Assembly: GCF_002117935.1 (NCBI RefSeq)
Contig: NZ_BDJE01000004.1
Location: 124,001-188,000, forward strand
Direction: 5' to 3'
From: Nocardioides sp. PD653-B2
GTDB taxonomy: Bacteria; Actinomycetota; Actinomycetes; Propionibacteriales; Nocardioidaceae
DNA length: 64,000 nt
Positions 5,964-63,920 of this stretch are shown one piece after another; position 1 is the first letter of the stretch; each line of letters starts with the position of its first letter. The notes beneath the pieces are model-generated. The model saw only the letters and a program-made list of their open reading frames with translations. It did no database searches and was not told the DNA's origin. A program made the translations under genes and the position numbers.

Positions 5964-6016
5964 CGCGCACTACCAGTTGTCAACACCAGCGAAACGTTCG
6001 TCCGTCGGAGGTGGCC

Positions 6017-7384: not shown

Positions 7385-7447
7385 CCGGTGCAGGGCGGTG
7401 CCCACGGTTCGGGCTGTCTCTTCGAGGATCGACTGGATGGAGGAACG

Positions 7448-8149
7448 ATGACACTCGACAACTCGATTCGCATCGAAGTCGAGGAGGATCTCGCGTGGGT
7501 GGTACTCGATGCCCCTCCGCGGAACCTCTTGGACTTTCCGATGACCCAGCGGCTCGTAGACACGTTGAGATCGCTGGACGGCGACGAGACCGTCCGTGCG
7601 GTAGCTCTGACGGGCGCTGGCGACACCTTCTGTAGCGGAGTGAACATCCCAGAGCTCGTGAAGTCCGGGACCGTGCCCGACTTTGCACGTGCCGCCGTCG
7701 AGCTGTTTACCCACTTCGCCTCAGCCAGCAAGCCCATCCTGGCCGCCGTGAACGGCGATGCGCTTGCAGGAGGATTCGCGCTGGTCTGCAGCGCCGACAT
7801 CGTCGTCGCAGCCGAAGGGGTCCGCCTCGGCACGATCGAAGCGAGCTTGGGCACATGGCCGGCACTAGCCAAGGTGCCTGGCCTTCGCCGTGTCCCACCC
7901 AAAGCGATGATCACCAATTGCCTGACTGGCGTACCGTTCACCGCGCAACGCGCGTTTGAGCTGAACATCGTGGACGAGGTGATGACGCCTGAGAATCTGC
8001 GCGCCCGGGTCGTCGAGTACGCGCGGCTGGCCACGAATGGGGGCCAGGCGGCCCTCATCGGTCGCCCGTTGTTCTACCGCGCATCGGCAATGTCGTTGCC
8101 CGAAGCGCTCGACGAGTGTGCGGACGCTTTCGTGTCGAGCTTCACCTAA
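7448..8149 (+). CDS. Enoyl-CoA hydratase/isomerase family protein
   Basis: A 233-aa crotonase-fold protein. The oxyanion-hole elements are present: ALTGAGDTFCSGVNI (first backbone NH site) and NGDALAGGFALVCSAD (second). A Glu in GTIEASLG sits where one of the two catalytic acids of hydratases is found. ATG 7448 has a GGAGGA site close upstream; a longer GTG-started frame from 7388 is unlikely. It suggests a CoA-thioester step (hydration, isomerisation or C-C cleavage) in the pathway, although no CoA ligase is seen in the window. Confidence 0.88.
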   Translation: MTLDNSIRIEVEEDLAWVVLDAPPRNLLDFPMTQRLVDTLRSLDGDETVRAVALTGAGDTFCSGVNIPELVKSGTVPDFARAAVELFTHFASASKPILAAVNGDALAGGFALVCSADIVVAAEGVRLGTIEASLGTWPALAKVPGLRRVPPKAMITNCLTGVPFTAQRAFELNIVDEVMTPENLRARVVEYARLATNGGQAALIGRPLFYRASAMSLPEALDECADAFVSSFT

Positions 8150-8205
8150 CCAACGTCTTGACACCAACGTCTTGACGGCGGCCCCAGGGCATCGCCTGGC
8201 GCTCG

Positions 8206-8748
8206 TCAACCTAACTGCGGGTCGCGTGGATCCCAGAGCCGAGAGTCGTAGTCCTTCTCGTAGGCCTTGCCGTCGGGATAGCTGACAAGTTCCATCTGCA
8301 GACCCCAGGGTGTGCGGAAGTAGATCCAGGTTTGGCCCGCGCTGGGTCCGCTCGTGCGATACGTGGGCTCGCCCATGACGTCTACGCCTGCATCGCGCAA
8401 GTACTCGAGTGCTGCCTGGAAGTCGTCGACGTAGAGCGCAAGATGATGGCCTCCAACATCGCTGTTGAGGGGCGGCTCGCGCCGCTGCTCCGGCGCCGTG
8501 TACTCGAAGAGCTCGATGTTGAGGCCGGCGCCGAGTCGAAGGAACCGGAGACGCTCCACCCTGGCGGTCGATGCGACGCCCAGGTGAGTTGTCATCCAGT
8601 CATCATCAGAGGCAATCGGACCGAGGTCATAGAACCGCTCAGCGCCAAGGACGTCCACGAAGAATCGCGTCGCCTCCTCGAGGTCAGGCACGGTGATTCC
8701 GACGTGGTCGCCACCTCGCAGGCCTGGCAACCCCTTGTGCTCAGTCAT
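8206..8748 (-). CDS. VOC-fold (glyoxalase/extradiol dioxygenase superfamily) protein
   Basis: A 180-aa protein with two beta-alpha-beta-beta-beta modules. Candidate metal ligands at module positions are His in GDHVGITV, Glu in LNIELFEY, His in VGGHHLALYV and Glu in LQMELVSY. The motif NSDVGGHH is shared almost exactly with the VOC protein at 10994-11494. It is divergent from the M24 gene and shares the 109-bp intergenic region. Function could be lyase, isomerase, epimerase or dioxygenase; the window does not decide. Confidence 0.85.
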   Translation of the reverse strand: MTEHKGLPGLRGGDHVGITVPDLEEATRFFVDVLGAERFYDLGPIASDDDWMTTHLGVASTARVERLRFLRLGAGLNIELFEYTAPEQRREPPLNSDVGGHHLALYVDDFQAALEYLRDAGVDVMGEPTYRTSGPSAGQTWIYFRTPWGLQMELVSYPDGKAYEKDYDSRLWDPRDPQLG

Positions 8749-8792
8749 GACCCCTCCAAGGCATCCTGTTCAGTACTGCTGCTCGAAGAAAC

Positions 8793-8822
8793 TTGACGAC
8801 CCCGTAGGGCGTTCAGTAATAC
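8793..8822 (+). promoter_or_regulatory. Sigma-70-type promoter for the M24 hydrolase gene
   Basis: TTGACG at 8793-8798 and TAATAC at 8817-8822, separated by 18 bp, 36 bp upstream of the ATG at 8858. The octamer GTTCAGTA occurs twice nearby (8768-8775 and 8811-8818), the second overlapping the spacer and -10, and could be an operator half-site. Confidence 0.5.
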
Positions 8823-8857
8823 TACACATACCACTGTCGCCTCGAGAGGATCCACCC

Positions 8858-10237
8858 ATGGCTATCGCTACCTACGGACCGAACGCCGTGGACTGGGAGA
8901 CCCGAGTCGACATGACCCGTCTACGGGACCAACGTCTCGCCAGGCTCCGGGCGGAGCTCGAGAAGTCGGAACTCGGTGCGATCCTCGCCTTCGACTTCAC
9001 CAACATTCGCTACATGACGTCCACGCACATCGGCACGTGGGCCATCGACAAGATGATCCGATTCTCTCTCCTGGTCCGGGGAGGCGAGCCGATCGTCTGG
9101 GACTTTGGCTCAGCAGCGAAGCACCACCAGCTGTACAACCCGTGGCTCGACTACTCCCACGCCGCACCCGACGCCGATCCGCATGGTCCACATCACGGTG
9201 CTGATCCGCGCAACCCAAGCGGAGCTCGAGCCGGCATCTCCACCTTGCGCGGGGCGATTCACCCCGATGCAGAGATGGGAGCCTCGGTTGCAGCCAAGAT
9301 CAAGCACGAGCTCGAGCAGTACGGCCTGATGGGGGAGCCGCTGGGGGTCGACGTCATCGAACTCCCGGTGCTCTTCGCGCTCCAGCAGGCGGGTATCGAG
9401 GTAGTCGACGGGCAACAGCTCTTCTTGGAGGCCCGACGCATCAAGACCAAGGATGAGATCACGCTGCTCACCCATGCGTGCTCCATGGTTGATGCTGCCT
9501 ACGACAGGCTCTACGAGTTCCTGCGCCCGGGCGTCCGAGAGAACGAGTGTGTCGGCCTGGTGGCCAAGACTCTGTACGACCTTGGATCTGAGTTCGTCGA
9601 GGGCGTCAACGCGATCTCCGGCGAACGGTGTGCACCGCACCCACACGTCTACTCGGATCGAATCGTTCGACCGGGTGACCCGGCGTTCTTCGACATCCTC
9701 CACAGTTTCAACGGCTATCGCACCTGCTACTACCGGACCTTCGCTGTCGGAAGCGCCTCAACCGGGCAGCGCGACGCCTACGTCCGGTGCCGGGAGTACA
9801 TGGATCACGCGATCAGCCTCGTCCGGCCAGGTGCCACGACAGCGGACATCGTCTCGGTATGGCCCACGGCGCAGGAGTTCGGGTTCTCCGACGAGGAGGC
9901 AGCCTTCGCGCTTCAGTATGGCCACGGCGTTGGTCTGTCGATCTGGGAGAAGCCAGTGTTCTCCCGGCTGGTCTCTCTTGAGCACCCGGAGGTGCTCGAG
10001 GAGGGGATGGTGTTCGCGCTCGAGACCTACTGGCCCAGTAGCGATGGATGGGGCGCCGCGCGCATCGAGGAAGAGCTCGTCGTGACGGCGGACGGATGCG
10101 AGGTCATCACCAAGTTCCCTGCCGAGGAACTGCTGGTCGCGGGACAACGCTACTTCTCAGTGTCCGGTCCGCTTCCCACCGAGCGGGATCCCCAGTCGCA
10201 CCTGAACACCGAGATCGGCCGCGGCCCGCACAGGTAA
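8858..10237 (+). CDS. M24-family 'pita-bread' hydrolase (creatinase/aminopeptidase-P type)
   Basis: A 459-aa protein with a creatinase-type N-terminal domain and an M24 catalytic domain. At the five metal-ligand positions I see Asp279, Cys290 (normally Asp), His356 (in YGHGVGLS), Glu389 and Glu404. Loss of the second Asp argues against a normal dinuclear aminopeptidase and toward a metal-independent or atypical enzyme, as in creatinase or ectoine hydrolase; the DMSP lyase DddP also uses this fold. ATG 8858 follows GAGAGGA by 7 bases, better than an upstream in-frame start. Substrate unknown; likely a small C-N (or C-S) bonded catabolite. Confidence 0.85.
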   Translation: MAIATYGPNAVDWETRVDMTRLRDQRLARLRAELEKSELGAILAFDFTNIRYMTSTHIGTWAIDKMIRFSLLVRGGEPIVWDFGSAAKHHQLYNPWLDYSHAAPDADPHGPHHGADPRNPSGARAGISTLRGAIHPDAEMGASVAAKIKHELEQYGLMGEPLGVDVIELPVLFALQQAGIEVVDGQQLFLEARRIKTKDEITLLTHACSMVDAAYDRLYEFLRPGVRENECVGLVAKTLYDLGSEFVEGVNAISGERCAPHPHVYSDRIVRPGDPAFFDILHSFNGYRTCYYRTFAVGSASTGQRDAYVRCREYMDHAISLVRPGATTADIVSVWPTAQEFGFSDEEAAFALQYGHGVGLSIWEKPVFSRLVSLEHPEVLEEGMVFALETYWPSSDGWGAARIEEELVVTADGCEVITKFPAEELLVAGQRYFSVSGPLPTERDPQSHLNTEIGRGPHR

Positions 10238-48270: not shown

Positions 48271-48523
48271 TGGGAATCACCTCTCCCTTGAACCGGAACG
48301 TCGCGACATCCACCGCGACACCTCACAAGCAAGAAGCAACCTCCACCGACCCGGATCGGACACCTCGGATCACCCCCCGAGTCTCTCTCCGACGACCAAC
48401 CGACTGCGACGAGCTCACCCAGATTTTCCAACCCTCAACACCCTCGGACCTCATGCACTGTCGGACCCGGGTGCCGGGCACGTGTCCGAACCCGGGTCGA
48501 CGCAGTTGCTTGTCACCGGTGTG

Positions 48524-51500
48524 ATGGGTGTGCACAAGCTGACTGCTGGCGATGGGTATACGTACCTGACCCGACAGGTCGCGGTGCACGATGCGAGCGA
48601 CCGCGGCCACGCTGGACTGGCTGACTACTACGCCGAGAAGGGCGAGTCGCCGGGCCGCTGGTTCGGGACAGGGCTCGCGGTGCTCGACCTCGCCGCGGGC
48701 TCGCAGGTCACCGAGACCCAGATGCGGAACCTGTTCGGCGAGGGCCGTCACCCGGACGCTGAACGGCTGGAGAACGCCGCGCTGGACGCCGGGAAGAGCG
48801 TCGAGCAGGCCAAGAAGGCCTCCCAGCTTGGCCGGGTGTTCGCTCGCTACTTGGGCAACCAGCCGGAGTTCATTCGGGAGACCGCCAAGCGATACATCGC
48901 CTACAACCTCGCCCACGGCGAGCACTGGAAGACACCCGTGCCAGCCGAGGTACGTGCGCGGGTTCGCACCGAGTTGGCCAACGAGCACTTCGTCCGCGAG
49001 CACGACCGGGCACCGATCGACGACCGTGAGCGTGGCTCCTTCATGGCCAAGGCCATCCGTCAGCAGACCACCGCCGTGGCCGGCTATGACCTCACGTTCA
49101 CTCCGGTGAAGTCCGTCTCGACGCTGTGGGCACTCGCCGATCGTGAGGTCGCCAAGGAGATCGAGGCGGCCCACCACGGGGCGGTCGAGGCCACGCTTGC
49201 GTGGCTGGAGAAGGAGGTCCTGTTCACACGCCGTGGCCGCAGCGGCATCCAGCAGGTCAGGGCCAAGGGGCTGATCGCCGGCATATTCACCCATCGTGAT
49301 GCCCGCTCGGGCGACCCTCATCTGCACACTCACGTGGCGGTCAGCAACAAAGTCCAAGACGCGACCGACCGCTGGCTGGCGGTCGACGGACGGGTGCTGT
49401 TCAAGGCCAACGTCACGCTCTCGGAGATGTACAACACGCGCCTGGAAGCCGAGCTGATCACCCGGCTAGGGGTGCGTTTCGAGAACCGCCACGCGGGTGT
49501 GAAGAAGGGCGTCGAGAAGCGACCCGTGCGCGAGATCGTCGGGCTCGACGAGCGGCTGGCCACGACATGGTCCAAGCGCGACACGATGATCGAGGCCCGT
49601 CGCCGCGAACTCGCGGCTGCCTTCCAGGCCGAGCACGGACGCCCGCCGACCGAAGGCGAGGCTGTCACCCTCAAAGAGCAGGCGTGGGAGCAGACCCGGC
49701 AGGCAAAGCACGAACCTCGCGCCGAAGCCGACCAACGCGCCGGCTGGATGACCGAGGCTTGCGCGATCATCGGCAGCGAGCAGGCCGTCCGGGAGATGGT
49801 CACCGGCTGCCTCGGCCACCTGCCCGCCGCCCAAGATGTCACCGACAAGTGGGTTGCCGAGACTGCGCAGCGCGTCGTCAACCGGGTCGCCGAGGACCGC
49901 GCGACCTGGCAGGTCTGGCACCTGCGTGCGGAAGCGCAGCGCCAGGTCCGCGCCGACGGCGTCCGGCTGGCCGACCACGACACCGCCGTCGACCGCGTCG
50001 TCGCCACCGCGATCAGCAAACACTCCATCGCCTTCGGTGACCCCGACCCGCTCACCCACGCGGCCACCGCCATGACCACGACCGCCGGGCTCACCGAGAG
50101 GCAGGACGGGCCCGTCGTGAGGATCCCCGCACGCCTCCAGCGGACCGAACACGGCCCACAAGGCGAGATGGTCGTCAGTGTCTACAGCCTCGCCGGCGCC
50201 CGCCAGTACACCTCCCAGGCTGTGATCGACGCCGAACGACGCATCGTCGCGTCCGCCCGCCGCACCGGTGGCCGCACCATCAGCGAGGTCCGGGTCGGTA
50301 TCGCGATCGCCGAAGCCGCCGCCAACAGTGCGACGACGGGGCTCCAGCTCAACGCAGCCCAACAGTCCTTGGTGCGCGAGATGGCCACCAGTGGACGAGC
50401 CGTCCAGCTCGCCCTCGCCCCCGCCGGCACCGGGAAGACCACCGCCATGCAAGTCCTCACCCGCGCCTGGCAGGACTCCGGCGGCACCGTCATCGGACTC
50501 GCCCCCTCCGCGGTCGCCGCCCAAGAACTCGGCGCTTCCATCAATCTCGAGACACCCGACAGCACTCGCGCCAACGCTGCAGCGAACGTCAGGGGGCCGC
50601 TGAACCGGCCGTGGCGTCCGGGTCGGAAGAAGGTCCGCGCCGACACGCTGGCCAAGCTCGTCTTCCACGCCAAGTACGTCGGTCCCACCGAATGGATGAA
50701 GAAGATCGACCACAAGACCCTCGTCCTGATCGACGAGGCCGGCATGGCCGCCACCACCGATCTCGCCGTCGCGATCGACTACATCACCGCGCGCGGCGGA
50801 CAGGTGAGGCTCGTCGGTGACGACCGGCAACTCGCCTCAGTGGCAGCCGGCGGAGTCCTGCGCGACATCGCCCACCAGATCGGCGCCGTCACTCTCAGCG
50901 AGGTACACCGATTCCGCAACCCCGACGGCAGTCTCAATCATGCCGAAGCCGCCGCGACCCTGGCACTGCGCGAGGGCGACCCATCGGCGGTCGCGTTCTA
51001 CGCCGACCGCGGTCGCATCCATATCGGCGACCTCGGCACCTGCGCCGACCAGGCCTACGCCGCCTGGGCAGCTGACCACGCCGCCGGCATCGACTCGATC
51101 CTAATCGCACCCACCCGCGACCTCGTCGCCGAGCTCAACAACCGCGCCCGCAACGACCGCCTCGACGCCCTCCATGCGAACGGGGGCGAAGAACAGATCG
51201 GCCGCGTCCTGACGCTGGCCGACCGCACCCAGGTTTCCGCAGGCGACAGGATCATCACCCGCCAGAACGAGCGCCGGCTACCCATCACGCACACCGACTG
51301 GGTGAAGAACGGCGACCGCTGGCACGTGGCCAAGGTCAACACCGACGGATCGCTCAAGGTCAGGCACGACAAACTCGGCAAAACCATCACCCTGCCCGCC
51401 GACTACGTCTCCAAGACAGTCCAACTCGGCTACGCCACCACCGTGCACGGCGCCCAGGGCATCACCACCGGCACTAGTCATGTCGTCCTCACCGGCGGGG

Positions 51501-54500
51501 AGGACCGCAACCTGCTCTACGTCGCACTCTCGCGCGGCAAGTTCGCCAACCACCTCTATCTCAACGTCGCCTCCGACGGAGACCCCCACAACCTGATACG
51601 ACCCGAGGCCCTCATCCCCCCGACCGCGCTCGACCGCATCGTCGAGATGCTCCGGCGCGACGGGTCGCCCGTATCCGCCACCACCACGATGCGCGAACTA
51701 GGAGACCCACACCAACGGCTGGGCGACATGGCCGCCCGGTACCACGACGCCGTCACCGCCGGCGCCGAGCACCTCATCGGCCCGGTTGGCATGAACAAGA
51801 TCGACACCCACGCCGAAGCACTCTTCACCGGGCTCACCGAGGCCCACGCCTGGCCCACCCTGCGCTCCCACCTCGCACTCCTCGCACTCAACGACCACAG
51901 CCCCCTGAAGCTGCTCAGCGCCGCCGTCAGCATCGGGTCCCTGGCCGACACACGCGACCCCGCCGCCGTCCTCGACACCCGCATCGACGACCTCCTCGCC
52001 ACAGGGTTCACCACAGGGGTTACCGGACTCACCCCGGCAATTCTGTACGACACGAGCACGCCTCCGGCGACTTCCCCAACTGCTGCCGAAGGGCCGTTGC
52101 CGTGGCTGCCCGGCATCCCGGCCCGGCTGGCCCAAGCTCACGACTGGGGTCCGTTCGCGGCCGCCTACCACCGGCTCGTGCGTGAACACATTGATGCGGT
52201 CCGTCACGAAGCGCGCGGATGGACCGGCGCAACCGCACCGGCCTGGGCCCAGCCACTCCTCGAGGAGGAGGACACGGAACTGCGCGCAGACATCGCGGTT
52301 TGGCGGGCCGTCGCCAAGACCGACGTGAACGACCTGCGACCCACGGGGGAGCGCGCCATCGGCGCGCCCGGCCTCCATCAGCGCAAGCTCAACCGGGCCG
52401 TCCGCACTGCACGTCCGAGCTACCCCTTCGCCCGGCGCACCTGGTACCAGGTGCTGCCCGAGACTGTCCGCACCGACTCGTGGATCACCCCACTGTGCCA
52501 GCGGCTCGCTCGCCTCGAGCGCGCCGGACTGCCGGTGGCCGACTACATCCAGCAGGCACTCGCCACCGATCCCTCACTGCCCAGCAGCCTCCCCGGCGGC
52601 CAGACCAGCCCCGAAACCAACACTGACACTGCCGCGGCGGCGCGGCCACTGACTGCGCGGCCACTTCCCGACGAACAACAGGCTGCGGCGCTGTGGTGGC
52701 GGCTAGTTCCCCACCTGGGACCGGCCGCGCTCGCCGCGGACGAACGCTCCGCCGACCTGCTCCAGCCTGCCTGGCGGACCGCACTGACCGAACTCGTCGG
52801 GGCCACCAGAGCCGACTACCTCCACAGGGCACCGGCATGGCCCGCGCTCGTCGCGGCCGTCGACGAAGCCTGCGAACACCACGGGTGTAGCCCGACTCAG
52901 ATCCTCGCCAGCGCACTCGACGGGATTCCGAAGGACGGGTCCTTGAGCGGCATCGAGGTCGCCGACGCACTCGTGCTGCGCATCGCCATGCTCACCGATC
53001 AACCATCCGAAGCCTCCCTGCACAGCGACGAAGAGCCACCGCTCTACGACGACCCCGACCTGCTACCGCCGGAGGACGCCGCCGAGTTCATGGCCGAGCT
53101 CTACCGCGATCAGCTCGACACCGGGTCCGACATCGGGTACGACCCAGCCGAGGAGCCACCAGGATGGGACCCGCCCTTCACCGGCCCCGGCGACGCCGCG
53201 TACGAGCACCCCGCCACCAGCTATGTCGACCCTTACACACCGCTGCCGCCCTGGGAGCAGCCAGACGACGCCTGCGTAGAGCACGCCTTCCCCGAGCCGA
53301 ACGAAGTCCCTGCCGCGCGGATCCGCGAACTCAACCGGCTCGCACTCACCTTCTTCGAGTCCTGCTACCCGCGGTCCTGGGCACCGGCGTACCTACGCGA
53401 ACGCCTCGGGACCGACCTGGCCGACCAGCCGAACTACACAGTCGGGTACGCCCCGGGCAGCGGCAGCAGCCTGATGCGACACCTCACCGAGCAGGGCGCC
53501 GCCCTCGATGAGGTCGAACAGGCCGGACTCGTCTCCCTGCGCGAACGCGACAACGGCACTACCTACTACCGAGACTTCTTCCGTGACCGACTCATCATGC
53601 CGATCCGCGATCCCCACGACCCCACCGGCGAGGCGATCCTCGGCTTCATCGGCCGCCGCAACCCCACCAAGACCGACGACGACCAAGAGCGGAACTGGGC
53701 CGGACCGAAGTACCTCAACACCCGCACCACCCCGGTGTTCTCCAAGGGCGAGGCCCTGTTCGGGTACGCCGAAGCTCACGAGCTCCTCACCAGGGGCGCG
53801 CTACCGGTCATCGTCGAAGGCCCCATGGACGCCCTGGCCATCACCCTGGGCAGCAACGGCGCCGCCGCCGGCATCGCCCCCATGGGAACCGCGCTCACCG
53901 TCGACCAGATCAAGCTGCTCCGCGCCCACATCAGCCTCGTCAGCGGTCGCGACCGCATCGCCGTGGCCACCGACTCCGACCCGGCCGGATGGAAGTCAGC
54001 GCAGAAGGCGTTCTGGCACCTCACCGCCGCCGACCTCGACCCCACCTATCTCGATCTGCCCGACGGCCTAGACCCGGCCAACCTGTTCGAGACCGGAGGC
54101 TCCACCGCCATTGCGGCGGCGATCGAACACCGATCTCCCCTCGGCGACGCGATGATCGACAACCTACTCCGAACCGCCGGTCACTGGACCGACACCGACG
54201 TCCGCCAGAAGCTCATCAACCAGACCGCCCAGCTCCTCGCCGTACGCGGTTCTGAGCACTGGCTCCCCGGCTGCGAGCGTCTCCGCGCCAAGCTGCACCT
54301 CGCTCCCGGCATCCTCGAGCACCAAACCGTCACGGAGAGCATGGACCGCGAACGCAACCGGCTGGCCTACGCCCAGACCCGCATCGACGAGATCAACGAC
54401 GACGCCCGCAAGCAGGCCGCAAGGACAGCCTCCCAGTCCCGGCCGCGCGAAGCCGAGCAACGGCTCGCCGCCGGCACCGCCACTACCCGACCCGACCACC

Positions 54501-54544
54501 CTGCACCACCTGCGGGGCCAGAGCCGGCCAGTCCGTCGCGGTAA
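48524..54544 (+). CDS. MobF (TrwC/TraI-type) relaxase-helicase with C-terminal primase/TOPRIM region
   Basis: A 2006-aa protein. The N-terminal relaxase domain has Tyr12/Tyr14 in HKLTAGDGYTYLTR and the metal triad DPHLHTH (His266, 268, 270). A RecD-like helicase follows: Walker A APAGTGKTT (Lys638), Walker B LVLIDEAGM, VHGAQGIT and NLLYVALSRG late motifs. From about residue 1600 a DnaG-like catalytic core appears (FFESCYPRSWAPAYLRERLG, DRLIMPIRD) with TOPRIM VIVEGPMDALA and ATDSDPAGWKS. It would nick and unwind the transferred strand and prime its complement. ATG 48524 matches the family start; GTG 48482 would add 14 residues. Confidence 0.93.
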   Translation: MGVHKLTAGDGYTYLTRQVAVHDASDRGHAGLADYYAEKGESPGRWFGTGLAVLDLAAGSQVTETQMRNLFGEGRHPDAERLENAALDAGKSVEQAKKASQLGRVFARYLGNQPEFIRETAKRYIAYNLAHGEHWKTPVPAEVRARVRTELANEHFVREHDRAPIDDRERGSFMAKAIRQQTTAVAGYDLTFTPVKSVSTLWALADREVAKEIEAAHHGAVEATLAWLEKEVLFTRRGRSGIQQVRAKGLIAGIFTHRDARSGDPHLHTHVAVSNKVQDATDRWLAVDGRVLFKANVTLSEMYNTRLEAELITRLGVRFENRHAGVKKGVEKRPVREIVGLDERLATTWSKRDTMIEARRRELAAAFQAEHGRPPTEGEAVTLKEQAWEQTRQAKHEPRAEADQRAGWMTEACAIIGSEQAVREMVTGCLGHLPAAQDVTDKWVAETAQRVVNRVAEDRATWQVWHLRAEAQRQVRADGVRLADHDTAVDRVVATAISKHSIAFGDPDPLTHAATAMTTTAGLTERQDGPVVRIPARLQRTEHGPQGEMVVSVYSLAGARQYTSQAVIDAERRIVASARRTGGRTISEVRVGIAIAEAAANSATTGLQLNAAQQSLVREMATSGRAVQLALAPAGTGKTTAMQVLTRAWQDSGGTVIGLAPSAVAAQELGASINLETPDSTRANAAANVRGPLNRPWRPGRKKVRADTLAKLVFHAKYVGPTEWMKKIDHKTLVLIDEAGMAATTDLAVAIDYITARGGQVRLVGDDRQLASVAAGGVLRDIAHQIGAVTLSEVHRFRNPDGSLNHAEAAATLALREGDPSAVAFYADRGRIHIGDLGTCADQAYAAWAADHAAGIDSILIAPTRDLVAELNNRARNDRLDALHANGGEEQIGRVLTLADRTQVSAGDRIITRQNERRLPITHTDWVKNGDRWHVAKVNTDGSLKVRHDKLGKTITLPADYVSKTVQLGYATTVHGAQGITTGTSHVVLTGGEDRNLLYVALSRGKFANHLYLNVASDGDPHNLIRPEALIPPTALDRIVEMLRRDGSPVSATTTMRELGDPHQRLGDMAARYHDAVTAGAEHLIGPVGMNKIDTHAEALFTGLTEAHAWPTLRSHLALLALNDHSPLKLLSAAVSIGSLADTRDPAAVLDTRIDDLLATGFTTGVTGLTPAILYDTSTPPATSPTAAEGPLPWLPGIPARLAQAHDWGPFAAAYHRLVREHIDAVRHEARGWTGATAPAWAQPLLEEEDTELRADIAVWRAVAKTDVNDLRPTGERAIGAPGLHQRKLNRAVRTARPSYPFARRTWYQVLPETVRTDSWITPLCQRLARLERAGLPVADYIQQALATDPSLPSSLPGGQTSPETNTDTAAAARPLTARPLPDEQQAAALWWRLVPHLGPAALAADERSADLLQPAWRTALTELVGATRADYLHRAPAWPALVAAVDEACEHHGCSPTQILASALDGIPKDGSLSGIEVADALVLRIAMLTDQPSEASLHSDEEPPLYDDPDLLPPEDAAEFMAELYRDQLDTGSDIGYDPAEEPPGWDPPFTGPGDAAYEHPATSYVDPYTPLPPWEQPDDACVEHAFPEPNEVPAARIRELNRLALTFFESCYPRSWAPAYLRERLGTDLADQPNYTVGYAPGSGSSLMRHLTEQGAALDEVEQAGLVSLRERDNGTTYYRDFFRDRLIMPIRDPHDPTGEAILGFIGRRNPTKTDDDQERNWAGPKYLNTRTTPVFSKGEALFGYAEAHELLTRGALPVIVEGPMDALAITLGSNGAAAGIAPMGTALTVDQIKLLRAHISLVSGRDRIAVATDSDPAGWKSAQKAFWHLTAADLDPTYLDLPDGLDPANLFETGGSTAIAAAIEHRSPLGDAMIDNLLRTAGHWTDTDVRQKLINQTAQLLAVRGSEHWLPGCERLRAKLHLAPGILEHQTVTESMDRERNRLAYAQTRIDEINDDARKQAARTASQSRPREAEQRLAAGTATTRPDHPAPPAGPEPASPSR

Positions 54545-56815: not shown

Positions 56816-57049
56816 TCAGGCATCCTTGTCGTTGCCTGCCGCCTGCATCGCCTCGGAGAAGCCGGTGTGGTCTTCGAGCCAGACCGCATTGCGGTTGTAG
56901 GAGACCCAGCAGCCGTCTTGGGGCGCCGAACGTCCGCCTTCCATGGTGGCGCGCTCACGGAGCCGGTCGAGGAGCGCGTCGGCTGCCATGCCGGCGCCCA
57001 GCGTGGCCAGCAGTTGCTGCTTGTCCCGGCTAAGCATTCCGCCCTTCAC
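56816..57049 (-). CDS. Small hypothetical protein of the transfer operon
   Basis: A 77-aa protein whose GTG (57049) overlaps the stop of the DnaA-like gene. Segments: LLATLGAGMAADALLDRLRE and WVSYNRNAVWLEDHTGFSEA. The next codons after its TGA stay open in the same frame into the 56291-56791 protein. Function unknown. Confidence 0.55.
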   Translation of the reverse strand: MKGGMLSRDKQQLLATLGAGMAADALLDRLRERATMEGGRSAPQDGCWVSYNRNAVWLEDHTGFSEAMQAAGNDKDA

Positions 57050-57762
57050 CCTCCTCCCCTGGTGGGTGCGGTCGCGACGGCTGGCCGTTGCGTGTCTTCG
57101 TCACGCCGGTGAAGGGTGTCGTTGCGGGCCTGGTCGAGGGCGGCCAGCTGCAGGATCGTGCTGTGTCCGCTCGACCGGCCGAGGAGATCTTCCTCCCGGA
57201 GAACACCTGTGGGGTTCGCGTAGTGCTGCTCAAGCTGGTTGACGATGGGGGTGCACACGGCGTTGAGTCGCGGGTTGTTGGCGACCTTGTTCTGCGCGTA
57301 CATGACGCTGGTGTGGTCCTTGCCGAAGTACGACGCGATCGCGGGCAGGGTCAGGCCGCCACGACGAGCCGCGGTCATCGCGACTGCGCGCGCGTCGGTC
57401 ACCGCCCGGTGGCGGTCAGCGCTGAGAACTGCAGCACGGGTGGTGCCGAAAGCCTGGGCAGCAGTGGCGACCGCGAGCGCACACACGCCGTCCGGGCCGA
57501 CGTCGGCCACCTCGCCGGTCGCGCTTTCGGCGGCATTGACCTGGGTGGCGAGCGCGATCGCGAGCTCTCGAAGCTGGGCGGTATTCATCTCCTCCAGCGT
57601 GCGCTCGAGAACCGACTGGTTCGCACCCGCGACCAGAGCCGCGAATGCCGCGGCCTGCTGGACGCTCAACTCGTCTGCGCCCGGTGTGGCCGGTTCCAAG
57701 TCGCGGGCGTGCTGCTCGGCGACGAGCCGGAGTCGCCGACTGCTGCTGTCTGCTGTGGTCAT
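57046..57762 (-). CDS. Protein with a DnaA domain-IV-like DNA-binding domain
   Basis: A 238-aa protein. Residues about 110-165 read SADRHRAVTDARAVAMTAAR then GGLTLPAIASYFGKDHTSVM, the DnaA C-terminal HTH signature (DARxxAMxLAR...LSLPxIGxxFGxDHTTV). There is no AAA+ domain. The N-terminal part is helical (VSVQQAAAFAALVAGANQ-like). It could bind DnaA boxes or a related site in the element's origin or transfer region. ATG 57762 with GAGAGG upstream; GTG 57774 is an alternative. Confidence 0.8.
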   Translation of the reverse strand: MTTADSSSRRLRLVAEQHARDLEPATPGADELSVQQAAAFAALVAGANQSVLERTLEEMNTAQLRELAIALATQVNAAESATGEVADVGPDGVCALAVATAAQAFGTTRAAVLSADRHRAVTDARAVAMTAARRGGLTLPAIASYFGKDHTSVMYAQNKVANNPRLNAVCTPIVNQLEQHYANPTGVLREEDLLGRSSGHSTILQLAALDQARNDTLHRRDEDTQRPAVATAPTRGGG

Positions 57763-57767
57763 CGCTG

Positions 57768-58481
57768 CTACCACCTCTCGTGAAGGTCGTCAGGGTCGCG
57801 TCTGGTATCGCCGGGCGCATCGACGACCGTGGCGAGCTCGCCGGCCTGGTCGGCGTCGTCGCGGTAACGCTGCTGGCGGTCACGGCGCGCGCGCGTGGAG
57901 GCGTGGCTCTCGTCGCGCTCGCGCCGCGGCCGAGGTTGGTGCTTGCTCGGCTGGCACCCGTCGCCGAGCCGGTCGCGCAGCCGCTCGAGGAACCCGGGGA
58001 GGCCGTAGCGGTGCCAGTCCTCCAGAGCGGCCGGGGAGACGGCGAAGCTGGTGTAATAGCGGCTGCACGCCAGGACCGCCAGGTCGTGCACCAGATGGGG
58101 GTGCGCGGGCCAGCACTCGGGGATCCCGGGCCGGGTCACGTTCCATAGGTGCTGCTCGTTGACCCACATCGCGACCAGGTCCAGCCACGCCCACAGTTCC
58201 GCGCGCATCTTCCCGCTACAGGTTCCCGGGTCCCAGGGGCGTGGCATCTGCGCGAGTTCGCGCAGCTCCTCCTCGTCTCCCGGTGGCTCGATCGTGGCCT
58301 GCTGCAGCTGCTCCATCGCGGTGCGGATGGTCGGACCGGGTTCGGGGAAGGGACGCACCATCAGCCCCGCCGGCGGCATCATCCCGTTCCCGGTCGGCGT
58401 GGCACTTCCAGGGCGGCGGGCGACCACCTCCGAGGGGTGGCCTGTGAAGCCCGGTGTCGTCAGAGTTGTCGGTGTCGTCAT
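57768..58481 (-). CDS. Hypothetical conjugation-associated protein (DUF4913-like)
   Basis: A 237-aa protein. The centre, MRAELWAWLDLVAMWVNEQH then PECWPAHPHLVHDLAVLACS, resembles small actinobacterial proteins found beside VirD4-type coupling proteins. The N-terminus is Pro-rich and the C-terminus very basic/acidic and probably disordered. It lies 15 bp after the coupling-protein stop. Assignment to a named family is tentative. Confidence 0.65.
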   Translation of the reverse strand: MTTPTTLTTPGFTGHPSEVVARRPGSATPTGNGMMPPAGLMVRPFPEPGPTIRTAMEQLQQATIEPPGDEEELRELAQMPRPWDPGTCSGKMRAELWAWLDLVAMWVNEQHLWNVTRPGIPECWPAHPHLVHDLAVLACSRYYTSFAVSPAALEDWHRYGLPGFLERLRDRLGDGCQPSKHQPRPRRERDESHASTRARRDRQQRYRDDADQAGELATVVDAPGDTRRDPDDLHERW

Positions 58482-58496: not shown

Positions 58497-60518
58497 CTAC
58501 TTTCCTCTGGCCCACTTCGGCATCCCGAGGCGCTGCCGGGTCCGTGCCACGGTCTCGACCGGGGTCAGGGGCGCGGCTGCGCCTGGGCTGGTGGGCTCGG
58601 GGTCGGTCACCTGGCCTCGGGCCATGCCGCGGGAGTGGTTCTGTGCGGCCAGTAGCTCCTTGCCGCGCCTGCCGTCGATGCAGCGGTGCAGGGTCGCGAC
58701 GATCGGGTCGTAGGTCTCGGACAGGACCAGGGCCTTGCGCTGCTCGATGCGGCGCAGTTCGGCCGGTTCGAGGATCGGCACCCGGCGCTGGTCCCAGGAC
58801 CGGTCCATCAGCCCGAAGAGTTCGTGGCCACGGGCCGAGTAGCGCATCTCGGTGTGGCTGGTCGAGCCGATCAGGTCCGAGAGCTCTTGGTAGAAGCGGA
58901 TGTCCTTGCCGCCACCGAAGACGATCAGGTTGTTCGACAGCCCGTAGATGGTGCGGGCCTCATCCTCGCCGTAGCCGACGACGAACTGGCGCCAGGTCTG
59001 CGCGGCCAGAATGAACGAGAGTCCCAAGGCGCGCTCGTTGGCCATCCGGGTTGACAAGGTTGGGATGGGCGCCGTGGAGGGCAGCTCGTCCAAGCACGCC
59101 AGGAACGGAGGGCACAACCGCCCGTGGGGTGAGGTCTCCCCCAGTCGCTTGGCGGAGTCCAGGATCTGCTCGGTGACCGCGGTCATCAGCGGCGACGCGC
59201 TCGCGTACGGGTCGTCTCTGCCGAGCAGGTAGATGGTTCCTCCGGCCTTGATCAGCGCTTCGATGTCGGTGGCCGGCCGGGTCGCTGAGGGCACGCAACG
59301 CTCCCGGATGGAGCGCTGGAAGAACAGCGCCATCGACTGTTGGACGGTGGTGATGGTGTTCCCGGCCGTGCGCTCGTCGCCGTACAGCGCGCCGCGCAGC
59401 AGGCCGTCCCACAGCGGCTCCGCAGCGGGGTGGGTGCGCAAGATCTCCTCGGCCTGGGGGTATTCGCGCGGGCTGGAGACCCACATCAGCACCTCCTCCA
59501 ACCCGATCCTGGCGATCGCTGCCGCGTGGAAGTAGGCCTGCAGCACCTTGGCGCACTCCCCGGCGTAGAACCGGGCCGCCTGATCGGAGGACTGGGCGGT
59601 GGCGCCCTTGATGGTGCCGGCAGCGAACGCTTTCGCCCGCCGCTCGGCCAGCATCGATTCCTCACACCCCGCGATCGGATCCCACACCAGTTCGGGGGTG
59701 CCAGGGGCGAGATTGAACGGGTCCAGGACCGCGACCGGCCTTAGGCCGCCCCCGGTGCCTTGCTGCCGGGCTTCGCGGGTGAGGAACAGGTCCTCGGGCT
59801 TGGTCAGGGTCACCAGTGCACCGCCGGGAGCGTCCAGGAGCGCGGGCACCAGCAGATCCAGCGTCTTGCCCGACCCCTGGGGTCCGATGACGCAGGTCGT
59901 CCGGTCGAACGGCACCCACAGGTCCGGGCCGCTTCGTCCGGCGCGGCCGAGCCGCCAGCCCACCTCGTGGGGCCTCACGTGCTCCGGAGCCATGCTCTTC
60001 AGAGCCACCCTTGGGTTCCTTCCCCTTCTTCCGGGAACTAGTTGCTCTCGACGCAACGCCCGGGTCGCGTAGAGGTCCGGCCGGATCTGATCGGCGCGTC
60101 GGCGCAGCGGCACGATCCCGAGCGCCTCGGCGGCATGCGCCGCGGTGGCCAGACCGTGCCGGGAGCCGGACCCGGTCATCTCGCGCATCCACATCCCGAC
60201 GACGACCGCGGCAGCCAGCACCACAACCTCCCCGATGAGGGTCAATGCCCACATCACTGCATCTGCGGGCAGTTCGTTGGCGGCGCGATGCGGGAGGCCC
60301 GCCCCGAAGTGCCCGCGCAGCAGCCCGCCGTAAGCCTCCAGCAGCCGACCGTCGGGCCAGGCGAGGTTTCCCGATGTCGCCCAGCCGGCGATGCCTTGGA
60401 CGACCAGCGGGGTGATCAGGACGAAGAAGACCCCGGCCACGAGGACGGCCACGGTGAACTCCCCCGTCGAGGGGGCCATGTTGGTGAATCGGGCGCGCCG
60501 GGACCGCTCCATGCTCAC
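58497..60518 (-). CDS. Type IV coupling protein, VirD4/TraG (TraM recognition domain) type
   Basis: A 673-aa protein with two N-terminal membrane segments. The ATPase has Walker A CVIGPQGSGKTLDLLVPALL (Lys218) and LVTLTKPEDL. Walker B is ACLDELPSTAPIPTLSTRMA, and FILAAQTWRQFVVGYGEDEA follows. It would link the relaxosome to a type IV secretion channel. GTG 60518 overlaps the stop of the small ATPase gene (GTGA), so it is translationally coupled. Confidence 0.92.
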   Translation of the reverse strand: MSMERSRRARFTNMAPSTGEFTVAVLVAGVFFVLITPLVVQGIAGWATSGNLAWPDGRLLEAYGGLLRGHFGAGLPHRAANELPADAVMWALTLIGEVVVLAAAVVVGMWMREMTGSGSRHGLATAAHAAEALGIVPLRRRADQIRPDLYATRALRREQLVPGRRGRNPRVALKSMAPEHVRPHEVGWRLGRAGRSGPDLWVPFDRTTCVIGPQGSGKTLDLLVPALLDAPGGALVTLTKPEDLFLTREARQQGTGGGLRPVAVLDPFNLAPGTPELVWDPIAGCEESMLAERRAKAFAAGTIKGATAQSSDQAARFYAGECAKVLQAYFHAAAIARIGLEEVLMWVSSPREYPQAEEILRTHPAAEPLWDGLLRGALYGDERTAGNTITTVQQSMALFFQRSIRERCVPSATRPATDIEALIKAGGTIYLLGRDDPYASASPLMTAVTEQILDSAKRLGETSPHGRLCPPFLACLDELPSTAPIPTLSTRMANERALGLSFILAAQTWRQFVVGYGEDEARTIYGLSNNLIVFGGGKDIRFYQELSDLIGSTSHTEMRYSARGHELFGLMDRSWDQRRVPILEPAELRRIEQRKALVLSETYDPIVATLHRCIDGRRGKELLAAQNHSRGMARGQVTDPEPTSPGAAAPLTPVETVARTRQRLGMPKWARGK

Positions 60519-61171
60519 CGCGCCACCGCCCGCCAACAGGTGTAGGTGCTGTTGGTGGGGACGGATGCCTGCCACCGGTGGCGCGGGAAGTCCATTAGGC
60601 CCCGCTGATCGGGAATGACGGCGATCGTGCCGATCGGCCAGTCCAGACGGCCCTGTCCTTCCAGAACCGCAGCTTCGGCCGCGTCGGCATGCTCGCGACG
60701 GACCAGGCCCAGGCACCTGAGCGCGCCGGCGGCGCGGAGTCGCGTCGTCAGGCTGAGGTCGCCGTGGGAGGTCCAGATCACGTGGGGAGCGCCCGGTGCG
60801 GCGAGCGCGAGCTGGTTCTCGCAGAGGGTGTCGATGCCGTCGACCACGATCAGGCAGTCTTCCGGCCGACCGTCCCGGCCGACCGGGTCGACCAGGTCGA
60901 CCACGTCTTCGACCGGGAGGCGCTCGCAGCGCAGGTCTGCCCACTCGATGGTGACAGGGGCGTACACGTGCGCATGCCGTGTGATGTCGGCCAGCCACCA
61001 TCGGGTCAGGTAGCGTGCGATCGTCGTCTTGCCGCGCCCGGCGTCGCCGACCAGGAGAAGCGGCAGGTCACTGTAGGTGTTGAACCCGGCGCTGCGCCCG
61101 TCCGGTGTGATGCCGATGCGTACGTCCATGCCCGGGACAAGCAACCGGCACGGACTCCGATCGGACACCAT
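60515..61171 (-). CDS. Small P-loop ATPase of the transfer operon
   Basis: A 218-aa P-loop protein: LPLLLVGDAGRGKTTIARYL (Walker A) and CLIVVDGIDTL (Walker B type), then HVIWTSHGDLSLTTRLRAAG and LGLVRREHADAAEAAVLEGQ. It looks like a shortened FtsK/VirB4-like or partition ATPase. ATG 61171 avoids overlap with the preceding gene; a frame start at 61252 would overlap it by 35 bp. Role in transfer is inferred from position. Confidence 0.75.
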   Translation of the reverse strand: MVSDRSPCRLLVPGMDVRIGITPDGRSAGFNTYSDLPLLLVGDAGRGKTTIARYLTRWWLADITRHAHVYAPVTIEWADLRCERLPVEDVVDLVDPVGRDGRPEDCLIVVDGIDTLCENQLALAAPGAPHVIWTSHGDLSLTTRLRAAGALRCLGLVRREHADAAEAAVLEGQGRLDWPIGTIAVIPDQRGLMDFPRHRWQASVPTNSTYTCWRAVAR

Positions 61172-61217
61172 CGAGCAAGCAACTGTCGGCTCGGGGCGGT
61201 TGCGGGCCGAGGCTTGG

Positions 61218-63920
61218 CTACGCGGCCGCGGCGGGCATCCCGCCGAGGTCAAAGGCCTGCTTGGGCAGCGCCCAGGTCACCGACCCGGCCGGGGCGTGGA
61301 CATCGGCGAACCCCACGCAGCCGTAGACCCCGTTCGCGGCGCATCCGTAGTCGTTGCCGAAGATCTTGCCGTTCCCGACGTAGATCGCCACGTGCCCGCG
61401 GCCGTCGCCGCGGTTGTAGGAGATCACCGCACCCGCCGGCGGGAGCGGGTCGAGCCCGGTGCCGTGGGCCTGGGCCAGCCCGGCGTTGATGATGCCTTGA
61501 GCCACGTCTTCACCGTTGCCGTAGCCACGGCCGACACCGGGGCCTCCGTAGACGGCGTCGACGACCTTGGGGCATTGGTTCTTGTAGGTGCATGGAGCTG
61601 CGCTGGTCCACGACAGTTGACACAGCCCGTTCGGGGTCTTGAGCATGACGTCGACGCGGGCCGACAGCGCGGCGGAGAGTTCGCCGGCGACCTGGATCGG
61701 CGACGCAGTGCAGGCGGTGTTGCTGCTGCTCGCGCCGCCTGCCGTGGCGGCGACGGCCTGCCGGGCTTGGTCGAGGAACTGGTGGTAGTCGGTCTTCTCG
61801 AACGGGATCCAGTCGGCGAACTTCGCCTCGCCTGATCCCGGGCGCGCGGAGTAGAGGGCGAAGGCGTACCGGGCGTTGAGGAGCGGGTCGAAGATGTCCT
61901 CGCGCGTGTTCCCCCCGGCGACCTTGCCCTTGTGCTGGGCGGAGATCTGCCACAGGCCGAAGTGGCTTCCGTTGGTGGCCTGGGGGTTCCAGGTCGACTC
62001 CACCCCGGCGATCGCCACCGCGGTCACCAGGTCCTCGCCACGGAACCCTGCCTGGTAAGCGACCGCCGCCGCCGTCTGAGCAGCGTTCGTGTTCCCGGGT
62101 GTGGAGACGTTTTGGAGCAGGACCGTGCCGAGGTTTCCGAAGTCCGGGCACGGCGGGCATCCGGAGGACTCTTGCCCGGTCGGGGTGCTGGAGCCGGGGC
62201 CGGCGTCGTTCATCGCCAGCGTGGTCAGCAAGGCGGGGTGGTCAGAACCCACGGCAGACGTGCTCAGCTCCCACGTCCGCTGCGCGGCCACTGGGGCCTT
62301 GTAGAACTGGTAGATGACGCCGGAGTCCTTGGTCCAGTTGAACCCCGCTGCCTCCATCCGGGGCGCGGCGGCGTTGGGTCCGTCATCGGGGTGGGAGTTC
62401 ATGTCGCCGCCGAGCAGGACCGGCCCGTAGGGGGCCAGGACGTTGGTCAGGTCGATCAGGTAGTCCATGCCGAGGCCGTACTGTTCGGGCCGGGTCATCG
62501 GCGGGTTGCCCCACTGTCGGCGGACTCGGTAGGCGTTGGTCATCTGGTGGGTGGCGATCACCGAGACCACGGCGCCGTCGGTGTTCCGCTGGAATGATCC
62601 CCAGGTCGCATAGCGGTCCCACTGGACGTTCTTGCCGTTGAAGACCGTCTGGTCCTTGTCGACGATCTTCACGCGGCCGCCGTCGAGCATCGTCCAGGCT
62701 TCGGTGCGCCACATGATGGCGTTGTTGATCGACTGGCTGGTGTTGCCGTCGCCCGTCTTGGCCGGGTCCTTGTAGGCGCCGTATCCGGGCAGGATGCCCG
62801 AGAGCTTCGCGGTGGGGTACGTCCAGATCTCATTGAGAGTGATGAAATCGGGGTGCGCAGCGCCGTTGATCGCGTGCAGGCCCTTCTCGGCTGCCCACTT
62901 GAAGTTCGCGCTGGCGATGGTGATGCTGCCGGTGACAGGTCCACCAGGCGACGCTGCGATCTCCGTCGGCATCTGGCCGAGCACAGTCCCGCTGCCAGAC
63001 CGCCCCTGCTCGGCCGCGCCAGCGGTGCCGGGTTCGCCGTCGGTGGTGCCGGTGGCCAGTTGTGCGGTGGTGTGGACGAACGGGTGGTCGGTGTAGTCGT
63101 GTGCCCCGTCGTTGGTGCTCTGGTCCACGACCGTGCCGGAGAAGATGGCGGCGGGGCTGCCCATGATCCAGTCGATCTGCTGATCAGTGGGGTTGGCCGG
63201 CGACCAGCCCGAGGCCAGCGACAAGAACAGGCGCTTGAACCTGGTCTTGTCGTTCATGTCACCGGTCAGGAACAGCGGCATGCCCGGTTCGGAGGTCTGC
63301 AGGTGCTGAAGGGCTGTGGCCTCGGCGCGCACCGCGGCAGCGCGCATCGCCTTAGTGCCGCCGACGGCACCGGCGGGGTTGTGGGTGTTGAGCACCCAGA
63401 TAGACCCCAGACCCGTCCCCCCACCCGACGTGGAAGTGAACCGCACCAGTGGGATCTTGATCATGGGCCTGCCGTAGCGGATCGACACGTACCGCACCTC
63501 CACAACCGCCCAGACGCCCGGCTGATAGGCGATCGCGTTCGCCGTCGCCGGCTCGCCGCTGCCGTTCTTCCCCTTCACAATCGCCCACGCGCCGTCAGTG
63601 GCCTCCAGGAACGCCTTCGCCTGCTGCGGCTCGAACTCCTGAAACCCGATGATCGAGGCCCCCGACGCACCGATCTTGGCGACCATGTTCGGCACCCGCT
63701 CGGCGTAGGGCCGCTCCCCGGGGTGGGGGTTACTCGAGTAGTGCGACGCGCCGCGCCAGTTGAGCGTGCCGATCCCGAACGACCCACCAGTGCCTTGGCT
63801 CACCGCCGTGGCACAAGCCGCCCGGACGGCCTCTATGTTCGCGCTGCCCATGCCCAGCACAAGCAGGATCAGCGGACAGATCAACACCAAGGGCAGACCC
63901 AACAGGAACGACTTCTTCAC
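61218..63920 (-). CDS. Secreted multidomain protein: two DNase-I-like (EEP) domains, lytic transglycosylase and NlpC/CHAP-like tail
   Basis: A 900-aa protein. A hydrophobic N-terminal segment (residues 4-25) suggests a signal or anchor. EEP domain 1 (about 48-290): Glu95, His180, GDMN 220-223, Asp250, DH 278-279. EEP domain 2 (about 332-572): Glu364, His458, GDMN 505-508, SDH 559-561. Both keep the catalytic set. A lytic transglycosylase follows (VESTWNP with Glu641, FGLWQIS), then a GHVAIYVGNGKIF segment (His843) like NlpC/P60 or CHAP hydrolases, nucleophile not assigned. GTG start overlaps the stop of an upstream gene. Expected to open peptidoglycan for the transfer channel; the nuclease pair is unexplained. 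Confidence 0.88.
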   Translation of the reverse strand: MKKSFLLGLPLVLICPLILLVLGMGSANIEAVRAACATAVSQGTGGSFGIGTLNWRGASHYSSNPHPGERPYAERVPNMVAKIGASGASIIGFQEFEPQQAKAFLEATDGAWAIVKGKNGSGEPATANAIAYQPGVWAVVEVRYVSIRYGRPMIKIPLVRFTSTSGGGTGLGSIWVLNTHNPAGAVGGTKAMRAAAVRAEATALQHLQTSEPGMPLFLTGDMNDKTRFKRLFLSLASGWSPANPTDQQIDWIMGSPAAIFSGTVVDQSTNDGAHDYTDHPFVHTTAQLATGTTDGEPGTAGAAEQGRSGSGTVLGQMPTEIAASPGGPVTGSITIASANFKWAAEKGLHAINGAAHPDFITLNEIWTYPTAKLSGILPGYGAYKDPAKTGDGNTSQSINNAIMWRTEAWTMLDGGRVKIVDKDQTVFNGKNVQWDRYATWGSFQRNTDGAVVSVIATHQMTNAYRVRRQWGNPPMTRPEQYGLGMDYLIDLTNVLAPYGPVLLGGDMNSHPDDGPNAAAPRMEAAGFNWTKDSGVIYQFYKAPVAAQRTWELSTSAVGSDHPALLTTLAMNDAGPGSSTPTGQESSGCPPCPDFGNLGTVLLQNVSTPGNTNAAQTAAAVAYQAGFRGEDLVTAVAIAGVESTWNPQATNGSHFGLWQISAQHKGKVAGGNTREDIFDPLLNARYAFALYSARPGSGEAKFADWIPFEKTDYHQFLDQARQAVAATAGGASSSNTACTASPIQVAGELSAALSARVDVMLKTPNGLCQLSWTSAAPCTYKNQCPKVVDAVYGGPGVGRGYGNGEDVAQGIINAGLAQAHGTGLDPLPPAGAVISYNRGDGRGHVAIYVGNGKIFGNDYGCAANGVYGCVGFADVHAPAGSVTWALPKQAFDLGGMPAAAA

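Follow-up and report, generated by a model that had tools for sequence, protein, structure and literature searches.

A predicted VirB1-like wall hydrolase with two EEP domains in a conjugation operon of Nocardioides

The window studied here is a stretch of 64,000 nucleotides from Nocardioides sp. PD653-B2 (contig NZ_BDJE01000004.1, positions 124,001 to 188,000), and the gene in question lies near its end, between a VirB4-like and a VirD4-like gene. We are highly confident that its product serves a conjugation operon as VirB1-like wall hydrolase; two domains of the EEP (DNase I-like, Exo_endo_phos) superfamily, EEP1 and EEP2, are added to it. That it would be a peptidoglycan hydrolase, as a VirB1-like protein should be, is predicted from an SLT domain above the Pfam cut-off with Glu641 and from a Cys-His-Asn set in a second domain. 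An earlier note, made from the sequence alone, had proposed a transglycosylase-type and NlpC/P60-type pair behind two EEP domains in a conjugation operon, and domain searches and neighbouring genes agree with it. Its author knew of no described system of this exact order; we found none in the open-access literature, nor any description of a VirB1-like protein with EEP domains there, the available parts of papers on type IV secretion systems (T4SS) included.

Domains and catalytic residues of the hydrolase

The hydrolase reading frame is open for 900 codons on the minus strand, from a GTG start at 63920 to 61218. It encodes, in order, a predicted N-terminal helix, EEP1, EEP2, an SLT/lysozyme domain and a domain of NlpC/P60-CHAP type:

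61218..63920, minus strand: EEP-SLT-NlpC/P60 hydrolase gene, VirB1-like (reading frame, Pfam, homologues and neighbours)
63816..63905, minus strand: N-terminal hydrophobic helix, residues 6-35, predicted membrane anchor or signal (AlphaFold model and MKK start of homologues)
63057..63785, minus strand: EEP1, residues 46-288 (Pfam, profile and AlphaFold structural match)
62196..62945, minus strand: EEP2, residues 326-575 (Pfam, profile and AlphaFold structural match)
62313..62315, minus strand: codon of Ile536 (sequence and alignment)
61851..62066, minus strand: SLT_3/lysozyme-like domain, residues 619-690, with conserved Glu641 (Pfam, profile search and alignment)
61251..61589, minus strand: NlpC/P60-CHAP-type domain, residues ~778-890, with Cys783-His843-Asn856 (sub-threshold Pfam match, profile search and alignment)

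The helix at the head of the protein was predicted by AlphaFold, and both an anchor and a cleaved signal fit it. The MKK start of the window protein recurs in 29 of 40 close homologues (P0002-P0041), while the helix would be lost if translation began some 39 residues downstream, as in P0001. The AlphaFold model, built with 48 sequences, has a mean predicted local distance difference test score (pLDDT) of 73.7 and a predicted template modelling score (pTM) of 0.40. Both EEP domains are well defined (pLDDT mostly 76-97), and EEP2 modelled alone reached a pTM of 0.89; the SLT and NlpC parts are weaker, and the arrangement of the domains carries no confidence.

Pfam places EEP PF03372 in two stretches of the protein (whole-protein E 2.3e-14), and EEP enzymes are the best structural matches of both models. 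The nearest solved structures are 3mpr, 3g6s, the mannosyl-6-phosphatase Bt3783 (4c1r) and TDP2. For both domains the ranking is headed by the glycan phosphatase Bt3783, TDP2 and two EEP proteins from Bacteroides for which no substrate is named; sphingomyelinases and, for EEP1 only, DNase I rank lower. A profile of EEP1 had no match at E 1 among PDB sequences. EEP2 also matched GW-type amidase repeats (4epc; E 0.0046 for the whole sequence, 3.3 and 5.8 for the single stretches), which was put down to chance, and the PDB sequence search with the whole protein gave a chance match only. For EEP1, EEP2 and SLT themselves, chance matches are ruled out by Pfam, motif residues, AlphaFold and structural matches.

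The two EEP domains differ in their catalytic residues. The set of eight key residues is complete in EEP1 (N54, E95, H180, D221, N223, D250, D278 and H279), whereas EEP2 has seven (N339, E364, H458, D506, N508, D560 and H561), with Ile536 opposite D250 of EEP1. Position 536, matched by the motif I/V-D-x-I/F, we take to be the equivalent of Asp212 in DNase I and Asp283 in APE1. Residues were counted in 334 EEP domains covering more than 85% of the profile, shorter pieces being dropped: 181 EEP1-type and 153 EEP2-type. Each of the eight motif residues is kept in at least 179 of the 181 EEP1-type domains, and seven of the eight in at least 151 of the 153 EEP2-type domains; at the eighth EEP2 position 84 domains have Asp, 56 Ile, 11 Met and one each Val and Ser, so that the Asp is replaced in 69 of 153. 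EEP2 has the EEP fold; judged by its motif, it is not a catalytically complete EEP enzyme. The earlier note's claim that each EEP domain keeps a full catalytic set thus stands for EEP1 and falls for EEP2, and the picture of two fully equipped surface phosphodiesterases finds no support.

Evidence for the peptidoglycan-cutting part comes from several searches. SLT_3 (PF18896, 6.1e-13) and SLT (PF01464, 1e-8) were both found above the Pfam cut-off, and a homologue profile of this part matched C-type lysozymes in the PDB (E 0.004). Near the C-terminus, CHAP scored 17.6 bits against a Pfam cut-off of 26 and the NLPC_P60 model gave no match in the protein; the PDB match of the homologue profile of this region was CwlO, an NlpC/P60 endopeptidase (E 0.004), and Cys783, His843 and Asn856 are unchanged across all 12 aligned rows. 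Among the Pfam families that the earlier note had named, Exo_endo_phos and SLT were thus recovered, while CHAP stayed below its cut-off and NLPC_P60 was not matched.

The neighbouring genes identify the operon. For the VirB4-like neighbour, matches to VirB4 family models (E 9e-13) stay under the model cut-offs, and the VirB4 structure 4ag5 is matched at 3e-9. Another neighbour belongs to the SCO6880 family (E 2e-119), and a third matches TrbL/VirB6 at 26.0 bits (cut-off 25.9).

Conservation and reuse of the EEP modules

About 40 near-full-length homologues of the hydrolase are found among the matches listed. Homologue searches scored only the 7993-7994 candidates with most words in common, one list holds the best 120 of 139 matches, and the window protein is present twice in the set (Q and P0001). 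The near-full-length homologues come from many independent records and the gene order recurs, which rules out the assembly artefact that the earlier note had considered.

The fusion is also conserved beside VirD4, as the survey of homologues suggested in that note could show. Neighbours were counted by tblastn; our own gene lists, pruned by open reading frame, missed some genes. Ten distinct intact loci hold a gene of the window's kind (type I: the window, L009, which is the same record as L066, L010-L014 and L067-L069), and all ten have VirB4-like and/or VirD4-like neighbours. In eight these flank the gene on both sides; one side only is seen in L014, at a contig end, and in L068, with no VirB4 within the stretch. 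The named type I plasmids, pNOCA01 of Nocardioides sp. JS614 and pTC1 of Paenarthrobacter aurescens TC1, are conjugative according to MOB-suite via PLSDB.

A second hydrolase of the source genome (type II; contig C22, L007 4750-7899, 1049 amino acids) occupies the same operon slot and has the same two EEP types. Its order differs from that of the window protein: EEP2, a lysozyme-like domain (by eye), EEP1, PF26571 (precomputed, in close relatives) and M23. Its EEP2 retains the Asp, where that of the window has Ile. VirD4 adjoins the gene in all 13 distinct type II loci (L007, L072-L077, L079, L080, L081 and L127-L129; tblastn). A VirB4-like gene lies within 1 kb in eight of the 13, about 5 kb away in L075 and about 14-16 kb off in L129 and in L130, which overlaps L079; tblastn of the stretches showed none at L072 and L076. 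In L075 the type II hydrolase is divided between two adjacent genes.

Module order was compared in a pool of 223 proteins, made of two homologue lists and three proteins from the source genome, with fragments and the window duplicate included. At least one EEP domain is present in 222 of them, as EEP1-EEP2 (65), EEP2-EEP1 (58), EEP1 alone (59), EEP2 alone (33) or otherwise (7). In P0093 the partner is SLT_2, and P0081 combines M23 with three EEP stretches. Both EEP modules are reused with other wall hydrolases, and in different order.

Outside the window's lineage the slot looks different. In a survey of the class, the hydrolase was matched in 17 of 394 genomes at E 1e-8, and 16 of these, the source genome included, belong to the window's family; in the 17th (G281) the match is limited to the SLT part. 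Matches to the SCO6880 neighbour come from 76 of the 394 genomes, and 20 stretches around such matches were examined. Where SCO6880 is at least 40% identical outside the source genome, all four loci of the same genus have EEP domains beside VirD4, and in three loci of other genera the slot holds NlpC/P60 (L125), M23 (L126) or M23, SLT_2 and NlpC/P60 (L131), without EEP. Among 12 more distant loci (L132-L143), tblastn found EEP only in L142, of the same family, although some stretches are short and the hydrolase may lie outside them. EEP is thus a lineage-bound part of a VirB1-type slot in which the peptidoglycan domains change. It would have been added to the slot rather than lost from it.

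The replacement of the catalytic Asp was traced on a tree built from 92 EEP2 rows and 4 EEP1 outgroup rows, after removal of near-copies above 88% identity from the actinobacterial set. The rows with the replacement form a group of 47 with 99% support in the Shimodaira-Hasegawa-like approximate likelihood ratio test (SH-aLRT). The tree requires one change when the column of the Asp itself is kept, two when it is masked and three when long rows are also removed; a single loss of the Asp, or its direction, is therefore not established. The group has a near-invariant D532 (46 of 47 rows, versus 5 of 45 outside) and is also altered at residues beside the catalytic Asp-His pair. Judging from these alignments, Asp532 is a possible compensation for the lost catalytic Asp. 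We disfavour the view of EEP2 as a decaying remnant, as seven of its eight residues are almost always present (at least 151 of 153 domains) and the group has changes of its own at D532 and beside the Asp-His pair.

Several observations were made in passing at these loci. In L013 a gene for 1335 amino acids (5920-9927) stands between the VirB4-like and hydrolase genes. L070 (10086-11297) has EEP1 and a shortened EEP2 in a frame of 488 amino acids, with no T4SS match in its 20-kb stretch; it resembles the remnant of a former type I gene and was left out of the type I count. Three genes, a tyrosine recombinase/phage integrase, a small gene (annotated helix-turn-helix, HTH, in L146) and a 1794-bp hypothetical gene, directly precede the hydrolase gene on pTC1; the corresponding region of the Pimelobacter plasmid pA-N39 is preceded by such a trio too (L144 2364-5597; L146 2438-5746), which may be one mobile unit at one site in both plasmids.

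Possible roles of the EEP domains

The available part of a review on Gram-positive VirB1 homologues (PMC12857230) presents these as hydrolases anchored in the membrane and built with SLT, CHAP, MUR or LytM domains, of which some seem to be regulatory; inactive homologues are proposed there as adhesins, and the LytM/CHAP domains of PrgK seem to regulate its muramidase. By the domain lists given there, TraG (pIP501), Orf14 (Tn916) and PrgK (pCF10) resemble the window protein as multi-domain hydrolases of conjugation operons with a predicted anchor, and TraG of pIP501 shares with it the pair of SLT and CHAP/NlpC-type domains. The window protein differs in carrying EEP1 and EEP2 after the predicted anchor and ahead of the wall domains. 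For VirB1 homologues the figure legend names SLT, CHAP, MUR and LytM only; the two extra domains place the window protein outside the domain kinds of the described ALPHA, BETA and DELTA classes (PMC12857230, available part). The window EEP domains resemble their superfamily in fold and catalytic motifs, and differ from its other members in being tandem, in being fused to wall hydrolases and, for EEP2, in having Ile for a catalytic Asp.

What EEP1 may act on is suggested by its relatives. Among the matches listed, 87 of 98 genomes of the genus have an EEP1 match at E 1e-15, some of which are conjugation copies (the listed one of G084 is) that the listed matches do not fully set apart. We compared 20 chromosomal loci, selected for holding EEP1, with 20 stretches around hydrolase-type matches, 14 of them with VirD4. 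A match to a type I phosphodiesterase domain is present at 18 of the 20 chromosomal loci (in the protein scanned, this domain and EEP1 are fused); 17 loci have LicD, which has a methyltransferase-type part, 16 have sulfotransferase-like genes (by eye, with no Pfam match) and 13 have PLD-like genes. None of these four was found in the 20 stretches around hydrolase-type matches. Across the genus, LicD occurs in 86 of 87 genomes with an EEP1 match versus 7 of 11 without (Fisher p 4e-4), and PLD-like in 85 of 87 versus 6 of 11 (p 1e-4), neither test being corrected for kinship. We read the structural and neighbour evidence as pointing to phosphoester bonds in surface glycans, fold likeness alone not being decisive. 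Both the domain partners and the genes that surround stand-alone EEP1 relatives on the chromosome thereby lend indirect support to the cleavage of wall polymers, one of the options listed in the earlier note.

By analogy with known VirB1 homologues, the hydrolase would be tethered outside the donor membrane at the channel. The SLT domain would cut the glycan strands of peptidoglycan and the NlpC/P60-type domain its peptides, EEP1 would cleave phosphodiester bonds of a wall or surface polymer blocking the channel, and EEP2 would hold that polymer or cut it slowly. Here we infer the membrane tether, the activity of each domain and the binding role of EEP2. Our confidence in the combined picture, a VirB1-like wall opener in which EEP1 cuts a polymer that EEP2 binds or cuts weakly, falls just short of even; a phosphodiester-containing wall or surface polymer as the substrate of EEP1 is proposed a shade more tentatively still. 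If the EEP domains do cut or hold a wall phosphopolymer, conjugation would open two wall components and not peptidoglycan alone. This would help to explain why such elements keep to one host family, and would identify a class of enzymes for wall polymers. The split in L075, the domain swaps and the clade of Asp-less EEP2 make the roles of the modules separately testable.

Other readings of the EEP domains were weighed. EEP1 could be a secreted nuclease, removing extracellular DNA or trimming DNA where the mating cells join, which would let cells come into contact or rid them of stray DNA. This we consider unlikely, as scanning of the domain partners and of the neighbours of stand-alone relatives turned up enzymes of walls, glycans and phosphoesters, no nucleic-acid-binding partner was found among the proteins scanned, and a nuclease at the channel would presumably endanger the cargo DNA; the DNA processing at the mating junction raised in the earlier note found no positive evidence beyond the EEP fold. 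MOBF relaxases attach to DNA via a tyrosine, and TDP2 is a structural neighbour of the EEP domains, but a TDP2-like removal of relaxase from DNA was rejected as the main reading, the domains being predicted outside the membrane. An action on phospholipids or lipid-linked intermediates, as by a sphingomyelinase, could help the channel to reach or fuse with the recipient membrane; the fused domains indicate the wall instead, and one Saccharibacteria-type relative carries a GH43 glycan hydrolase, which makes this quite improbable.

We think it about equally improbable that both EEP domains are mainly binding or regulatory modules holding the hydrolase at the wall, in the manner of the extra domains of PrgK or of adhesin-type VirB1. 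The loss of the catalytic Asp in a stable EEP2 clade is consistent with this, as are the regulatory LytM/CHAP domains of PrgK and the adhesin-type VirB1 already described (PMC12857230, available part), but keeping every EEP1 residue in at least 179 of 181 domains is more than binding demands, and EEP2 keeps seven of eight too. Least probable by far is an anti-competitor effector delivered into recipients, another suggestion of the earlier note. A contact-dependent machine joined to cell-damaging domains would suit an effector; the predicted N-terminal anchor, the VirB1 slot and the plain wall hydrolases in that slot in three other genera argue against it, and nothing beyond the EEP fold spoke for it.

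A search with P0094 returned 50 proteins among the candidates scored, including large EEP proteins, most of 1193-1810 amino acids. Only three of the large ones bear organism-like names, Candidatus Saccharibacteria (P0225), Candidatus Microsaccharimonas (P0243) and BH09PAT4 (P0252); all others were assigned by similarity. Like the window protein, the Saccharibacteria-type proteins (P0094, P0225, P0243 and kin) have EEP1-like domains and/or EEP2, many with M23 or CHAP; unlike it, they have a long N-terminal part and partners that include GH43, tyrosine-phosphatase and phosphoesterase domains. In seven of the eight full EEP2 domains of this set the place of the Asp is taken by Met, Ile, Val or Leu; the eighth, P0255 (945 amino acids), has Asp. 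In the tree the seven nest inside the replacement group alongside Nocardioides-type rows. Patescibacteria are reported to have a T4SS of monoderm type, and some live on Actinobacteria (PMC12102498, available part); the terms 'exonuclease' and 'endonuclease' are absent from the main text of that paper, by a term search of the part available. In P0225, P0236, P0243 and P0253 the C-terminal domains behind the EEP modules vary (third EEP, GH43, tyrosine phosphatase, phosphoesterase), and these proteins look like an exchangeable effector or wall-attack scaffold.

A wider proposal, which we regard as somewhat unlikely, is that the EEP pair is an undescribed phosphodiesterase unit for breaching walls. 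EEP1 would cut and the remodelled EEP2, with position 536 replaced and the near-invariant Asp532 present, would capture a phosphodiester-linked polymer on the surface of Nocardioides-type actinobacteria; conjugative elements would join the pair to interchangeable peptidoglycan cutters, and Saccharibacteria would share it, probably by horizontal transfer, to breach actinobacterial hosts. Such a link would join the tools of conjugation to epibiont attack on actinobacterial hosts.

Other genes around the hydrolase

Beyond the hydrolase, the following genes were assigned in the window:

60515..61252, minus strand: small P-loop gene between hydrolase and VirD4, with weak NACHT/AAA matches (family search)
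58497..61001, minus strand: VirD4/TraG-type coupling protein, with TraG-D_C and T4SS-DNA_transf (Pfam)
57046..58481, minus strand: two genes downstream of virD4, for 237 amino acids and for 242 amino acids with a DnaA C-terminal HTH (family search)
48482..54544, plus strand: TrwC-type relaxase/helicase with C-terminal primase/Toprim domains (family search)

The P-loop gene has a counterpart at the same position in several type I loci, and the true start of VirD4 probably lies further in than 61001. The 242-amino-acid protein with the DnaA C-terminal DNA-binding domain is encoded at 57046-57774 (minus), adjoining the transfer genes; pNOCA01 and pTC1 have genes of like size, place and annotation after traG/TraM, including a dnaA-domain/HTH gene.

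A third SCO6880 copy lies in the source genome on contig C74 (L124 9077-12831), in a truncated further copy of the window's T4SS with VirB6, SCO6880 (83% identical) and a cut-short VirB4-like gene; a methylase-like gene (by eye) for 1326 amino acids is not far away. We had considered this copy as an EEP-free system, but the operon ends inside the VirB4-like gene and has no hydrolase slot, so that it is uninformative. In L005 (11743-17230), genes resembling TadE, TadB, TadC and CpaF (by eye, from translation) lie upstream of the transfer operon and might supply a mating pilus. Upstream of the relaxase, at about 4000-32000 of the window, are catabolic-looking genes (dioxygenase-like, oxidoreductases and regulators; by eye), which suggest a catabolic plasmid or element.

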